From Pedococcus aerophilus (lineage in GTDB: Bacteria > Actinomycetota > Actinomycetes > Actinomycetales > Dermatophilaceae): a stretch of 64,000 bases of DNA. The DNA lies in assembly GCF_039532215.1 (NCBI RefSeq), contig NZ_BAAARN010000003.1, positions 202,485-266,484 on the forward strand, in the 5' to 3' direction. Position numbers and translations under genes: made by a program. The notes beneath the pieces were generated by a model. That model ran no database searches, was not told the DNA's origin, and saw only the letters and a program-made list of their open reading frames with translations. Below are positions 17,625 through 59,977 of this stretch, piece by piece (the stretch's first letter is position 1; every line of letters begins with the position of its first letter).

Positions 17625-17718
17625 CCCCTCGCCCCTCTTCCCCGACTTCGTACCCGCTGTTCCGCTCATCGCCACCGGAATTGCGGGTTTCGGCGGAACT
17701 GCGGGTACGAAGTCGGGG
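17625..17718. repeat. Left hairpin of DUF559 cassette A, with a 46-bp repeat shared in inverse with the right end
   Basis: The 46 bases at 17625-17670 recur as a perfect reverse complement at 18858-18903. The left copy also folds locally: the 26 bases at 17640-17665 pair with 17693-17718 with a single mismatch, around a 27-base loop. The core word GCGGGTACGAAGTCGGGG therefore occurs three times around this one gene. It follows pstB and could end transcription, but its size and the matching right copy point to a cassette boundary. Confidence 0.9.
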
Positions 17719-17815: not shown

Positions 17816-18838
17816 GTGCGTCCACCACCCGACCTGACCGCCCTGCCGCCTCTCGTCACCCGGGAGCGCGCGCTCCGGACCCTGACCCGGCACCAGCTCG
17901 ACGGGGCTCTCGCCTCAGGACGCCTCGGGCGGGTGCGGCGCGGCCTGTATGACGATCCGGGCCGCTGCGCGCGCCTCACCACCCCCGCGCGGCATGTCGG
18001 GCTGGCCGAGGCAGTTCAGGCGTCCGAGACGGGGGCGGTCCTCAGTCACGTCTCGGCCGCCCTGGTCTGGGGACTACCCAACCCACGCTGGACCACCCCG
18101 CGCATCCAGCTGACGGTGACCGGACGCGCCCGCACCAGTCGCGCCGGCAGTGCAGTCCTGCTGCACCGCGCCGCGCTGCCGCACCGCCACCGCGCGGTCG
18201 TCGACGGTCTCTGCGTCACCTCCCCGGCCCGGACCGTCCTCGACTGCTTCCGCACCCTCCCTCTGGGCGACGCGCTGGCCGTCGCCGACGCCGCCTTCCG
18301 TCGCGAGCTCCTCGAGGCGGTCCACCTCGAGGATGCCCTTGAACTCATGCACCGGTGGCCGCAGCTGGAACGGGTGCACCGCGGCATACCCCTGATCGAT
18401 CCACGACGCGAGAACTGGCTCGAGTCCTTCTCAGCAGCTGCCCTGGCCACCCATGGCGTGCCTCTCGCTACGCCGCAGGTCGCGGTCTACGACCTGGACG
18501 GCACCTTCGTCGCCCGGGTCGACGCGCTGTGGCAGGAGCACGGCGTCATCGGCGAGGCGGACGGGGCAGGGAAGTACCTCGGGGACTTCGACGAGGCCGG
18601 TGACCGCAGCCCGGAGGCCGTCGCCCGCAGGGTCATCGCAGCCGGGGTCCGGGAGTCGCGGTTGCGCGACCTGGGCTTCGGGGTGGTGCGCTGGGACCCA
18701 CGGGAGATCACGACCAACCCCGCGCGGGTGGCACGCCGCTTCCATGCCACCGCAGCGGCGACAGACCGGTCCAGGATCCGCGCGCTCGTCCGGCTCGAGG
18801 GCTCTCCAGCGGCGACCTCGTACCCGCCAGCCCGCTGA
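17816..18838 (+). CDS. AbiEi-like wHTH protein with C-terminal DUF559/Vsr-like nuclease domain (cassette A)
   Basis: A 340-residue protein of the family often labelled type IV antitoxin AbiEi-domain or DUF559-domain protein. The N-terminal part looks like a winged helix (TRHQLDGALASGRLGRVRRGLY), followed by a middle domain (VLSHVSAALVWGLP ... TSPARTVLD) and a C-terminal PD-(D/E)xK-type region with VGEAD-like GEADGAGKY (Glu247, Asp249) and RLRDLGFGVVRW. It has no partner toxin gene. I chose GTG 17816 because CCACGATCGG precedes it by three bases, exactly as in the second copy at 57354. The 3' end runs into another copy of the repeat arm (CGACCTCGTACCCGC). Its biological role is unknown. Confidence 0.75.
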   Translation: MRPPPDLTALPPLVTRERALRTLTRHQLDGALASGRLGRVRRGLYDDPGRCARLTTPARHVGLAEAVQASETGAVLSHVSAALVWGLPNPRWTTPRIQLTVTGRARTSRAGSAVLLHRAALPHRHRAVVDGLCVTSPARTVLDCFRTLPLGDALAVADAAFRRELLEAVHLEDALELMHRWPQLERVHRGIPLIDPRRENWLESFSAAALATHGVPLATPQVAVYDLDGTFVARVDALWQEHGVIGEADGAGKYLGDFDEAGDRSPEAVARRVIAAGVRESRLRDLGFGVVRWDPREITTNPARVARRFHATAAATDRSRIRALVRLEGSPAATSYPPAR

Positions 18839-18857
18839 AACGCCGCTGTTCCGCCCA

Positions 18858-18903
18858 GATGAGCGGAACAGCGGGTACGAAGTCGGGGAAGAGGGGCGAG
18901 GGG
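18858..18903. repeat. Right end repeat of cassette A
   Basis: Perfect 46-base reverse complement of 17625-17670. Locally, CGCTGTTCCGC just upstream (18844-18854) pairs with GCGGAACAGCG (18862-18872) around a seven-base loop. It lies between the cassette gene stop and the pit stop (18913), and no target-site duplication is apparent outside the two copies. Confidence 0.9.
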
Positions 18904-56108: not shown

Positions 56109-57224
56109 TCAGGCGGAGGGGTGGTCGCCGACCATCTGGACGGAGCCACCGTCGACGCCCTTGGCCCCGTGGACGACCTCGACCCCGTCCTCGACGGGAG
56201 CGCCCTCCAGGTCGCTGACGTCCCCGATGGCCCAGGCCTGGATGCCGCGTGCGGCCAGCTCCCGGGTGGCTGTGTCGACCTGGTCGGCCGGCAGCATCGC
56301 CACGAAGCCGACCCCCATGTTGAGGGTGCGCTCGAGGTCGGTTCGTGGCACGCCGCCGAGGTCGCCGACCGTGCTGAAGACGGCGGGCGGCGTCCACGTG
56401 CTCCGGTCGAGGCGTGCGAAGGCCCCCGTCGGGAGGACCCGGGCGAGGTTGGCGGCCAGGCCGCCACCGGTCACGTGAGACAACGCGTGGACGTCGATGC
56501 CGTCGGTGCGGATGAGGTCGAGCAGGTCGGCGGAGTAGACCCGGGTCGGGGTGAGGAGCTCCTCCCCCAACGTGTGGCCGAACTCGTCGACGTGGCGGTC
56601 GAGCTGCCACCCTGCGGCACCGATGACCTTGCGCACCAACGAGTACCCGTTGGAGTGCAGACCGCTCGAGCCGAGAGCCAGCACCACGTCACCGGAGGTG
56701 ACGCGGTCGGGACCCAGCACGTCGGCATACTCGACGACCCCGGTCGCGGCACCGGCCACGTCGTACTCGTCCGCCTCGAGCAGTCCCGGGTGCTCGGCCG
56801 TCTCGCCACCGACGAGGGCGACGCGCGCCTGCTCACAGGCAGCAGCGATACCGGACACGATCGCCGCGATCCGCTCGGGCACGACACGGCCGGTGGCGAT
56901 GTAGTCGGTCATGAACAGCGGCTCGGCGCCGCACACGACGATGTCGTCGACGACCATGCCGACGAGGTCGAAGCCGATCGTGTCGTGCCGGTCCATCGCC
57001 TGCGCGATCGCGACCTTGGTGCCGACGCCGTCCGTGCTCGTGGCCAGGACCGGGCGGGTCATCCGCGCGATGGCACTGGCGTCGAACATGCCGGCGAATC
57101 CGCCCAGGCCCCCGAGCACCTCGGGACGGGTGGCCCGGCGCACCGAGGCCTTCATCAGCTCGACGGCCTTGTCACCGGCCTCGACGTCGACGCCGGCGGA
57201 GGCATAGGTGATCGGTTCGCTCAC
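56109..57224 (-). CDS. purM: Phosphoribosylformylglycinamidine cyclo-ligase PurM
   Basis: A 371-residue AIR synthetase, step five of purine synthesis. TRPVLATSTDGVGTKVAIA and VGMVVDDIVVCGAEPLF (ATP/Mg-binding), VALVGGETAEHPG and GSSGLHSNGYSLVRKV are family landmarks. GTG 57224 is preferred: TAGGCT (57232-57237 on the minus strand) precedes it by seven bases, so purM may have its own leaderless promoter in addition to read-through from purF. It is separated from purF by cassette B. Confidence 0.92.
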   Translation of the reverse strand: MSEPITYASAGVDVEAGDKAVELMKASVRRATRPEVLGGLGGFAGMFDASAIARMTRPVLATSTDGVGTKVAIAQAMDRHDTIGFDLVGMVVDDIVVCGAEPLFMTDYIATGRVVPERIAAIVSGIAAACEQARVALVGGETAEHPGLLEADEYDVAGAATGVVEYADVLGPDRVTSGDVVLALGSSGLHSNGYSLVRKVIGAAGWQLDRHVDEFGHTLGEELLTPTRVYSADLLDLIRTDGIDVHALSHVTGGGLAANLARVLPTGAFARLDRSTWTPPAVFSTVGDLGGVPRTDLERTLNMGVGFVAMLPADQVDTATRELAARGIQAWAIGDVSDLEGAPVEDGVEVVHGAKGVDGGSVQMVGDHPSA

Positions 57225-57310
57225 GGTCCCCAGCCTAGACCGCCGCCACCCCTGCCCCGTTCCGAGTCCACCGCCCCGCCCCTCCCGCCGTCCCGCCGCT
57301 CCCCGCCCGG

Positions 57311-57352
57311 TCGATGTAGACGCGCCGGGGAAACGCGGCGTGTCCACATCGA
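57311..57352. repeat. Left hairpin of DUF559 cassette B
   Basis: TCGATGTAGACGCGCC (57311-57326) pairs with GGCGTGTCCACATCGA (57337-57352) apart from one mismatch and one G-T pair, around a ten-base loop. It directly abuts the cassette gene's stop (57354). The word TCGATGTAxACGCGCC recurs in the right hairpin. Confidence 0.9.
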
Positions 57353-57353
57353 C

Positions 57354-58280
57354 TCAACTGGCCCGGCGGCGGGACAAGGCCGCATGGGCCGCACAGACCT
57401 GGTCCATGAAGCGCTCGGAGTCCAGGCGCAACCCCATCAGCGTCATGCGCAGCACCCGGTCCCCGCTGATGACCAAGGCGTTCTGGCGAAACTGGTCGTC
57501 GGTCGGAGCGAGTCCCCACTGGTGCTGCGACCCGTCGATCTCGACGACGAGCCCGATGTCCTCCCAGGCGGCGTCGAGGTACGCCCTGCCCCACCCGAGT
57601 CGCCGGACGACCTGCTTGGTCGGTGCCGGCAGACCTCGGGCACGACACATCGTGGCGAAGTCCAGCTCGCCGAGGCTCTGCGCACCGTCGGCGATGTCCC
57701 GCGCGACGGTGGGGATGAAGGCGCGTCGCGTCCTTCCCCTGACGGCGCGCGTTGCCGCCATGAGCTGAAGACCGGTGACCAGTCGTTGCTGCACGGGCAT
57801 CACCAGCAGCAAGGCTGCCTGCCTGTCGCTGACCGCCCAGTGAGCAGCCCGCACCGCGGCCACGGCAGGCACGGTGCGAGGCATGCCACTCACGGCCAGC
57901 TCGCGCTCCACCCGGCGAACGACCTTGTGAAGAGTCACGCCCTCGACGGCAGGGACGTGGGCGTTGTGCACCACCGAGACATGGACCCGGTCGTCCTGGT
58001 AGCCGGTGAGCCCGGCAACCTGCAGCGCCGTCACGCCGTCGAGCGCCGCAATCCGGCGACCCGTCCCCCAGAGGGCCCGCCACCGCAGGCCCTCGACGCC
58101 CAGCGGTGCGGTGTGCAGGGCCACAGTCTGCTGTCCGTGCGCCGCCCAGCGCCCTGCTGCCACCTGACGGGCGACAGCGCCTCGGTCCCAGCCGTACAGC
58201 GCGAGCTCGGCCCGCGACAGCACGAGGTCGTGCGCCAGCTGTCGCAGCTCGTCGACGCGCAGACGGCGGTGGGAGGTCAT
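57354..58280 (-). CDS. AbiEi-like wHTH protein with C-terminal DUF559/Vsr-like nuclease domain (cassette B)
   Basis: A 308-residue protein of the same family as the 17816 gene. The N-terminal wHTH region is RAELALYGWDRGAVARQVAAGRW, the middle includes AALDGVTALQVAGLTG, and the C-terminus is a DUF559 nuclease core: LVVEIDGSQHQW (Glu247, Asp249, His253 in the ExDGxxH pattern) followed by DDQFRQNALVISGDRVLRM. The acidic residues appear intact, so it may be catalytically active. CCACGATCGG lies three bases before its ATG (58284-58293 on the minus strand), matching the first copy. No partner toxin or methylase is adjacent. Confidence 0.78.
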   Translation of the reverse strand: MTSHRRLRVDELRQLAHDLVLSRAELALYGWDRGAVARQVAAGRWAAHGQQTVALHTAPLGVEGLRWRALWGTGRRIAALDGVTALQVAGLTGYQDDRVHVSVVHNAHVPAVEGVTLHKVVRRVERELAVSGMPRTVPAVAAVRAAHWAVSDRQAALLLVMPVQQRLVTGLQLMAATRAVRGRTRRAFIPTVARDIADGAQSLGELDFATMCRARGLPAPTKQVVRRLGWGRAYLDAAWEDIGLVVEIDGSQHQWGLAPTDDQFRQNALVISGDRVLRMTLMGLRLDSERFMDQVCAAHAALSRRRAS

Positions 58281-58351
58281 CGACCGATCGTGGCGAAACC
58301 GGCACCACCGACCCGTCAGTCATCCACAGCCCGCCCCGCCACCTCGCCGTG

Positions 58352-58393
58352 TCGATGTAAACGCGCCCTGAATTGGCGGCGCGTTTACATCGA
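58352..58393. repeat. Right hairpin of DUF559 cassette B
   Basis: TCGATGTAAACGCGCC (58352-58367) pairs perfectly with GGCGCGTTTACATCGA (58378-58393) around a ten-base loop. The 16-10-16 geometry equals that of the left hairpin. It lies 72 bases before the cassette gene start and 46 bases downstream of the purF stop. In this orientation it could also end the purF transcript. Confidence 0.92.
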
Positions 58394-58438
58394 ACCGGCA
58401 GTGGAGTGGGGGGACCGGCGGAGAGGGAGGCGAGAGGG

Positions 58439-59977
58439 CTAGGGGCGGGTGAGGGCGTCCTGGGCGCCGCCGCCGACGCCGAGGGTCACGCCGTCGACGT
58501 CGAGGGGCAGCGTCTCGAAGAGGTTCTTGCCGAGCCGGCTCGCCTCAGGCAGCTCGAGCGGGTACTTGCCCGAGAAGCACGCGGTGCAGAGCTGGTCGCT
58601 CGGCTGCTCGGTGGCCGCGATCATCCCCTCCTCGCTGATGTAGCCGAGGGAGTCGGCGCCGATGGAGGTGCAGACCTCCTCGACCCCGATGCCGGTGGCG
58701 ATCAGCTCGGCGCGGGTCGCGAAGTCGATGCCGTAGAAGCAGGGCCAGCGCACCGGCGGGCTCGAGATCCGCACGTGCACCTCGGCGGCCCCGGCCTCGC
58801 GGAGCATCCGGACCAGCGCGCGCTGGGTGTTCCCGCGGACGATCGAGTCGTCGACGACGACGAGGCGCTTGCCCTTGATGACCTCGCGCAGCGGGTTGAG
58901 CTTGAGCCGGATGCCGAGCTGGCGGATCGTCTGCGACGGGGCGATGAAGGTGCGCCCGACGTAGGAGTTCTTGACCAGGCCCTGGCCGTAGGGGATCCCC
59001 GATTCCTGGGCGTAGCCGATCGCCGCCGGGGTGCCGGACTCCGGCGTCGGCATGACGAGGTCGGCCTCGACAGGGTGCTCCCGGGCCAACGTCCGGCCCA
59101 TCTCGACCCGCGACTCGTGGACACCACGGCCGTTGATCGTCGTGTCCGGGCGGGCGAGGTAGACGTACTCGAAGACGCAGCCCTTGCGCGCCGTCTCGGC
59201 GAACCGCTGCGAGCGCAGACCCTCCTCGTCGATCGCGATCAGCTCGCCGGGCTCGACCTCACGGATGAGGGAGGCACCGACGATGTCGAGGGCGGCGGTC
59301 TCGGAGGCGACCACCCAGCCGCGGTCGAGGCGGCCGAGGACCAGGGGACGGATCCCTTGGGGGTCGCGGGCTGCATACAGGGTGTGCTCGTCCATGAAGA
59401 CGAAGCAGAACGCGCCCTGCAGCTTGGGCAGGATGTCCATCGCCGCGGCCTCGAGCGACCGGTCGGGGTCGTCGGCGAGCAGGGCGGTGACCAGGGCCGT
59501 GTCCGTGGTGTTGCCTCGCACCAGCTCGCCGCCACCGTGGGCGAAGCCCTCCTCGGCGCGGGAGGCGACGAGGTCGCGCAGCTCGGCGGAGTTGATGAGG
59601 TTGCCGTTGTGCGCCAGGGCCACGGTCGACTCGGCGTGTCCGCCGAGGGTGGGCTGGGCGTTCTCCCACGTCGAGCCGCCGGTCGTGGAGTAGCGGCAGT
59701 GGCCGACGGCGAGGTGCCCGCGCAGCGAGGCGAGCGAACGCTCGTCGAAGACCTGGGACACGAGCCCCATGTCCTTGTAGACGAGGATGCTGCGCCCGTC
59801 CGAGGTCGCGATGCCGGCCGACTCCTGCCCACGGTGCTGCAGGGCGTAGAGGCCGTAGTAGGTGAGCTTGGCGACCTCCTCACCGGGAGCCCAGACACCG
59901 AACACCCCGCAGGCGTCCTGCGGGCCCTTCTCGCCTGGGAGGAGATCGTGCGTCAGCTGTCCGTCGCCACGTGCCAC
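58439..59977 (-). CDS. purF: Amidophosphoribosyltransferase PurF
   Basis: A 512-residue enzyme of the first step of purine synthesis. Residue 23 (DACGVFG) would be the N-terminal nucleophile after a 22-residue propeptide is removed. The glutamine amidotransferase domain (QHRGQES, GHCRYSTTG, HNGNLIN) is followed by the PRPP-binding VVVDDSIVRGNT and the iron-sulfur-type cysteines (LCTACFSGKYP). GTG 59977 starts it. It is normally upstream of purM; here cassette B separates the two. Confidence 0.93.
   Translation of the reverse strand: MARGDGQLTHDLLPGEKGPQDACGVFGVWAPGEEVAKLTYYGLYALQHRGQESAGIATSDGRSILVYKDMGLVSQVFDERSLASLRGHLAVGHCRYSTTGGSTWENAQPTLGGHAESTVALAHNGNLINSAELRDLVASRAEEGFAHGGGELVRGNTTDTALVTALLADDPDRSLEAAAMDILPKLQGAFCFVFMDEHTLYAARDPQGIRPLVLGRLDRGWVVASETAALDIVGASLIREVEPGELIAIDEEGLRSQRFAETARKGCVFEYVYLARPDTTINGRGVHESRVEMGRTLAREHPVEADLVMPTPESGTPAAIGYAQESGIPYGQGLVKNSYVGRTFIAPSQTIRQLGIRLKLNPLREVIKGKRLVVVDDSIVRGNTQRALVRMLREAGAAEVHVRISSPPVRWPCFYGIDFATRAELIATGIGVEEVCTSIGADSLGYISEEGMIAATEQPSDQLCTACFSGKYPLELPEASRLGKNLFETLPLDVDGVTLGVGGGAQDALTRP

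Follow-up and report, generated by a model that had tools for sequence, protein, structure and literature searches.

A palindrome-bracketed gene for a predicted AbiEi- and Vsr-like nuclease in the purF-purM gap of Pedococcus aerophilus, a candidate palindrome-spreading unit

The gene between purF and purM and its predicted product

The window analysed is a stretch of 64,000 nucleotides from Pedococcus aerophilus (contig NZ_BAAARN010000003.1 of assembly GCF_039532215.1, positions 202,485 to 266,484), whose genome is called G000 where it is compared with those of its congeners. The window contains the host genes purF (58439..59977, minus strand) and purM (56109..57224, minus strand), both supported by Pfam, and between them a gene encoding a protein of 308 aa (57354..58280, minus strand, ATG start), all three being co-directional. 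This gene is bracketed by two palindromic repeats of one family, the ATGT family: TCGATGTAGACGCGCC-10-GGCGTGTCCACATCGA at 57311..57352, separated by 1 nt from the stop codon of the gene, and TCGATGTAAACGCGCC-10-GGCGCGTTTACATCGA at 58352..58393, 71 nt upstream of its start. The whole unit lies directly after the purF stop codon. The first hairpin has a 16-10-16 layout with Watson-Crick pairing at 14 of the 16 arm positions (by eye), and the second is paired at 16/16. As single-stranded DNA folds, both beat 200 of 200 shuffles (z of -3.2 and -7.5, respectively), and the two palindromes, compared as copies of 52 nt, are 75% identical to each other. An earlier note on this DNA had described a gene between two hairpins, inserted between purF and purM in their direction, and both parts of this description are confirmed.

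As these hairpins are stable and situated just after stop codons, they could be topology sites or transcription terminators of the host, namely common terminators acting in both directions that have an intergenic gene between them by chance. A search for T-tract terminators within 56900-58700 gave none, which argues against this explanation, although actinobacterial terminators may lack a T tract.

The predicted protein comprises an AbiEi-like part (residues ~1-200) and an EDxHD/Vsr-like nuclease of the DUF559 type (residues ~201-308). The Pfam match to DUF559 is weak, scoring 18.7 bits where the cut-off is 20.6, but a profile search retrieved 3hrl (E 7e-5) and, weakly, PvuRts1I (E 0.009). An AlphaFold2 model (pLDDT 94.7, from an input of 63 sequences comprising the protein itself and those of the fetched loci) was compared with the PDB using Foldseek; the best matches were the AbiEi antitoxin 6y8q, Rv2827c (1zel) and the catalytic domain of I-Bth0305I (3r3p), with Vsr (1cw0) at rank 10, all with weak E-values, none below 0.001. 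Across the 63 aligned sequences, the 308-aa protein included, E205, D236, E247, H253 and D262 show no variation, and D249 is retained in 89%. The earlier assignment to a DUF559-type nuclease retaining Glu247, Asp249 and His253 therefore stands, and the predicted nuclease is supported by profile and fold searches together with conserved active-site residues. No Pfam match to a Y1/HUH transposase domain of the IS200/IS605 type was obtained in this enzyme at E-values up to 1. The N-terminal part is more variable than the nuclease, with a mean major-residue frequency of 0.50-0.53 vs 0.62, which would fit a changing DNA specificity. The gene is under purifying selection, since dN/dS is 0.12-0.19 in all seven pairs computed, including 0.18 against the copy of the congener G007.

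The PADLOC models of AbiEi match the N-terminal part with an E-value of 0.003 in this protein and down to 2.6e-19 in more distant members of the family. Together with the best fold match being an AbiEi antitoxin, this is compatible with an AbiE-like regulator or a lone defence nuclease, for which the upstream palindrome would be an operator for autoregulation, the downstream palindrome a terminator, and any dispersed copies the sites of a small regulon. AbiEi proteins bind inverted repeats. However, no gene for an AbiEii nucleotidyltransferase toxin is adjacent at this locus, where the neighbours are purF and purM.

Matched palindrome pairs and dispersed copies

The window contains a second unit, for which the earlier note had reported matched hairpins of a sequence of its own; this proved correct. 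Its gene (17816..18838, plus strand) encodes 340 aa if translation begins at the GTG at 17816, a guessed start, and searches used the sequence from 17819 on. A palindromic repeat of the CTTCGTACCCGC family, which is also dispersed, lies 5' of the unit at 17640..17718, and another covers the 3' end of the gene at 18813..18885, with the stop codon inside the repeat. The PADLOC models identify an AbiEi-like N-terminal part in the product, and no Pfam family matches it above its cut-off. Seven palindromes of this family, with arms 55 bp apart, were seen by eye in the genome, two of them at the unit. When six genes of the AbiEi/DUF559 type in G000 were compared, namely five of the eight places matching DUF559 and the 17.6-kb gene, all six showed a matched repeat on both sides, different for each gene (scores of 20.5 to 68.5).

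Besides the two units of the window, these six comprise the genes at L035, L036, L037 and L022, each with its own matched flanking repeat. At the other three DUF559 places, L039, L040 and L041, no matched pair was seen in a hairpin scan, the one search applied to them.

Scanning a single genome for each species yielded at least 74 loci. Leaving out L183, a short alphaproteobacterial match, 73 loci were analysed, of which 67 had enough flanking sequence on both sides. A matched repeat (local alignment score of at least 20) is present on both flanks of the gene in 54 of these 67 loci, among the matches listed. In contrast, windows shifted within the same loci matched in 0/63 cases and mismatched flank pairs in 24/1005, the highest scores of the latter coming from loci of related species, several of them at purF-purM. 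Three of the 13 loci without a matched repeat at this threshold are at purF-purM (L123, L137 and L171); L051, the counterpart of L171, has hairpins on both sides. Hairpins are thus present at most homologous DUF559 loci, and the proposal that the two units of the window belong to a single class of cassettes that differ in hairpin sequence extends to all the G000 genes compared and to most listed loci elsewhere. The hosts are Actinomycetota, mainly Intrasporangiaceae, among the matches listed. The sequence of the repeat is specific to the unit and differs from one unit to another, and repeat similarity tracks protein identity (Spearman 0.42, 0/2000 permutations, 52 of the 54 matched units). Palindrome and protein have therefore diversified together. 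For a regulator with an operator upstream of its gene, the matched repeat on the 3' side of these units is unexpected.

The ATGT palindrome is dispersed. At least 14 copies of 42 nt are present in the G000 assembly (4.02 Mb, 10 contigs), two at the unit and 12 elsewhere, full palindromes having been sought only where a search with the arm gave a match. All 12 solo copies lie at most 50 nt from an ORF stop, or overlap it, according to a mechanical ORF call (at least 90 codons, GC3 above 0.80) made without a background control. This distribution, with the copies not fronting one gene, is difficult to reconcile with the sites of a small regulon. Six of the 12 lie between converging nearest ORFs (by eye), as would suit bidirectional terminators. 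No GTAG-type tag was seen by eye directly beside the 14 copies, within flanks of 30 nt. At L031:1967-3045, an ORF of 300 aa, not of the DUF559 type by eye and possibly encoding a secreted phosphodiesterase, lies between two ATGT palindromes that are 1037 bp apart.

In the two congeners with an ATGT-bearing unit at purF-purM, a strict ATGT pattern occurs 11 times (G000) and 13 times (G007), and among the other nine congeners six times in G001, once each in G003 and G005, and not at all in the remaining six; the reversed control pattern gave 0 in all eleven genomes. The pattern leaves five stem pairs free. In the 32 strict copies, two of the five vary by paired changes (0/1000 shuffles each), whereas the other three vary little and without excess pairing (52, 1000 and 247 of 1000 shuffles), in shuffles that ignore the relatedness of the copies. 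The loop pairs of the same 32 copies show no excess of paired changes.

Other palindrome families are distributed in a similarly uneven manner. In G001, G005 and G006 the GGTATT family accompanies the unit and is present at two, five and three further places, respectively. GGTATT hairpins without an intact cognate unit found were seen in G007 (eight), in G000, G002 and G003 (one each) and in G004 (two), and none in G008, G009 and G010, all these counts being made by eye. The repeat of a distant unit, that of Tetrasphaera australiensis, is present at this unit and at five other places in the genome, as a palindrome at three and as a single arm at two; six other genomes lack it. Copy numbers are low, at ~4-14 per palindrome family where counted. 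A pattern allowing three mismatches was too noisy to count, with paired arms seen only in G004 among the matches listed, and a broad hairpin tally mixed true palindromes with coding noise, again among the matches listed.

The 3' end of metH, the one solo site compared between genomes, carries an ATGT palindrome in G000 and in none of the ten congeners. Hairpins of other sequence are present there in G002, G004, G005 and G010 (by script) and in G006 (by eye). A family of ~75 bp, CCACTTGTTGCCA...TGGCAACAAGTGG, follows metH in two congeners, G006 and G010, and in G010 is also present in the purF-purM gap (L190:2170-2242, L198:2167-2239 and L089:298-370), with no cognate gene identified. A GTATGCCGYG arm, possibly of another hairpin family, is found downstream of metH in G004, G003 and G002 (L192, L193 and L197). 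The absence of the metH palindrome from the same host gene in congeners is not what would be expected of host terminators, which also leave unexplained the unit-specific matched ends, their co-variation with the protein and the uneven dispersal between genomes. We consider it quite improbable that the hairpins are ordinary terminators or topology sites.

G001 carries its six strict ATGT copies although no intact gene cognate to them was found there; a search of this genome for a decayed gene bracketed by two palindromes (L199) was also negative. G007 likewise holds GGTATT palindromes without an intact cognate gene found. Such genomes would be accounted for if the palindromes were genuine REPs whose movement depends on a different enzyme, for instance a RAYT encoded elsewhere, the nuclease gene being a passenger or parasite. 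Nevertheless, it is the nuclease-type gene that is bracketed, and the palindrome of the unit changes together with the nuclease-type protein, which makes this explanation highly improbable.

The purF-purM gap as a recurrent site

A unit lies directly after the purF stop codon in seven of the 11 congeners, G000 included. It is co-directional with the pur genes in G000, G004 and G007 and opposite to them in G001, G003, G005 and G006. The gap is empty in G002, where it measures 48 bp and holds nothing else, and in G008, G009 and G010 it contains other sequence and no unit. Among the 73 listed loci, 13 are beside purF or purM, six in the same direction and seven in the opposite one, four of the 13 being congeners already counted. 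The gene is thus found at this position in other genera; it occurs there in both orientations and does not form one clade. In a tree of 72 proteins (six of 78 were dropped for stops or shortness), a single clade for the 15 purF-purM copies is rejected (lnL difference of 144, p-AU 4.4e-5), bearing in mind that copies that left purF-purM would break the clade too, and four orientation changes are needed for these copies. The AU test therefore rejects the alternative of one ancestral insertion having persisted at purF-purM. Units of more than one lineage, in either orientation, occupy the gap, which makes it a recurrent site. This variation of place and orientation between genomes adds to the points against an AbiE-like regulator or lone defence nuclease, which we regard as unlikely.

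Between G000 and G007, the unit gene is 75% identical, compared with 94% for purF and 90% for purM. Broken copies of the gene are present in G006 (two), G010 and G007. No clear target-site duplication was seen by eye at purF-purM or metH, where the empty sites are too diverged.

Carriage by plasmids was rejected, with 0 matches at E 1e-5. Spread by phages was also rejected, the matches being one unannotated faecal scaffold and four partial, distant ones in IMG/VR. The scaffold, MT837139, deposited as "Bacteriophage sp." from human faeces, encodes a homolog with 45% identity (L205:3501-4328) and has its own matched repeat pair; it may be a bacterial contig rather than a phage.

A possible mechanism and its relation to known systems

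Based on these observations, we propose that the gene and its palindromes form a compact unit, selfish or partly domesticated, whose nuclease would recognise the palindrome belonging to it and thereby promote the spread of that palindrome; we give this reading a probability of about 0.65. The AbiEi-like part would probably bind the palindrome of the unit, as a duplex or as an extruded hairpin, and the EDxHD/Vsr-like nuclease would cut or nick there. Through repair or re-joining, new places could then acquire a copy of the palindrome or, more rarely, of the complete unit, and positions immediately following host stop codons would probably be favoured. What the data show is the dispersal of the palindromes and their co-diversification with the protein; recognition, cleavage and the resulting movement with its route are our inference. 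No transposition event, no target duplication and no cleavage was seen, which counts against this reading, as do the palindromes of G001 (ATGT) and G007 (GGTATT), the low copy numbers, the 13 loci without a matched repeat at the threshold, the stem and loop pairs lacking excess paired changes, and the weak Foldseek E-values. The dispersed copies are not identical to the ends of the unit, so any movement would be old or slow.

Binding, cutting and copying of a palindrome would make the unit a functional counterpart of a REP-RAYT system in which a PD-(D/E)XK-type nuclease takes over the role of the Y1 (HUH) transposase. As described by Nunvar et al. 2010 (PMC2817692), a RAYT gene is flanked by palindromes, one of which often directly follows its stop codon, the cognate palindromes are dispersed, and the gene co-evolves with them and evolves faster than its neighbours. 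The units described here resemble this description in having the gene of one predicted DNA-cutting enzyme between two palindromes at most listed loci, in a palindrome often placed directly behind the stop codon, in the dispersal of cognate palindromes in the genome of the gene, G001 and G007 being exceptions, and in a gene that outpaces its neighbours in divergence and co-evolves with its palindrome. In contrast to REPs, which usually exceed 100 per genome according to the same paper (PMC2817692), the present palindromes are few, and they measure 42 to ~80 nt without a GTAG directly beside them. Furthermore, the place and orientation of the units vary from genome to genome, whereas the paper (PMC2817692) reports no location changes for RAYTs. 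The hosts are Actinomycetota, and the enzyme combines AbiEi-like and EDxHD/Vsr-like parts. With an unrelated enzyme and units that differ in place, this is not a RAYT system and probably works like one.

The catalytic-domain fold match and the active-site pattern suggest a likeness to Vsr and to the EDxHD homing endonucleases of the I-Bth0305I family, and the spreading of a nuclease gene that lies between genes would resemble homing. Unlike these endonucleases, the gene encodes an AbiEi-like fusion, is bracketed by palindromes and lies between genes rather than in an intron or intein. The AbiEi-like N-terminal part is shared with AbiE type IV toxin-antitoxin systems, which differ in having an AbiEii toxin beside the gene, no fused nuclease domain and no dispersed palindromes. 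The nuclease domain is common to DUF559/MTES_1575 proteins, with 3hrl and PvuRts1I as solved relatives; these names cover the domain only, and an abstract-level literature search found no palindromic unit described for them. The same search, covering the best matches and few subscription journals, found no literature linking DUF559/Vsr-like genes with palindromic repeats.

We tentatively suggest that these units may belong to a novel class of mobile elements in prokaryotes, in which each AbiEi and EDxHD/Vsr-like nuclease spreads its own palindrome. Within Actinomycetota they would form a REP-RAYT counterpart of independent origin, with several distinct palindrome families side by side in one genome. 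If so, unrelated enzymes would have given rise to bacterial palindromic repeats on at least two occasions, and the actinobacterial genes of the DUF559/AbiEi type would gain a function. Each unit would provide a nuclease-palindrome pair of distinct sequence, testable in vitro, and the differences in the purF-purM gap between related actinobacteria would be partly explained.
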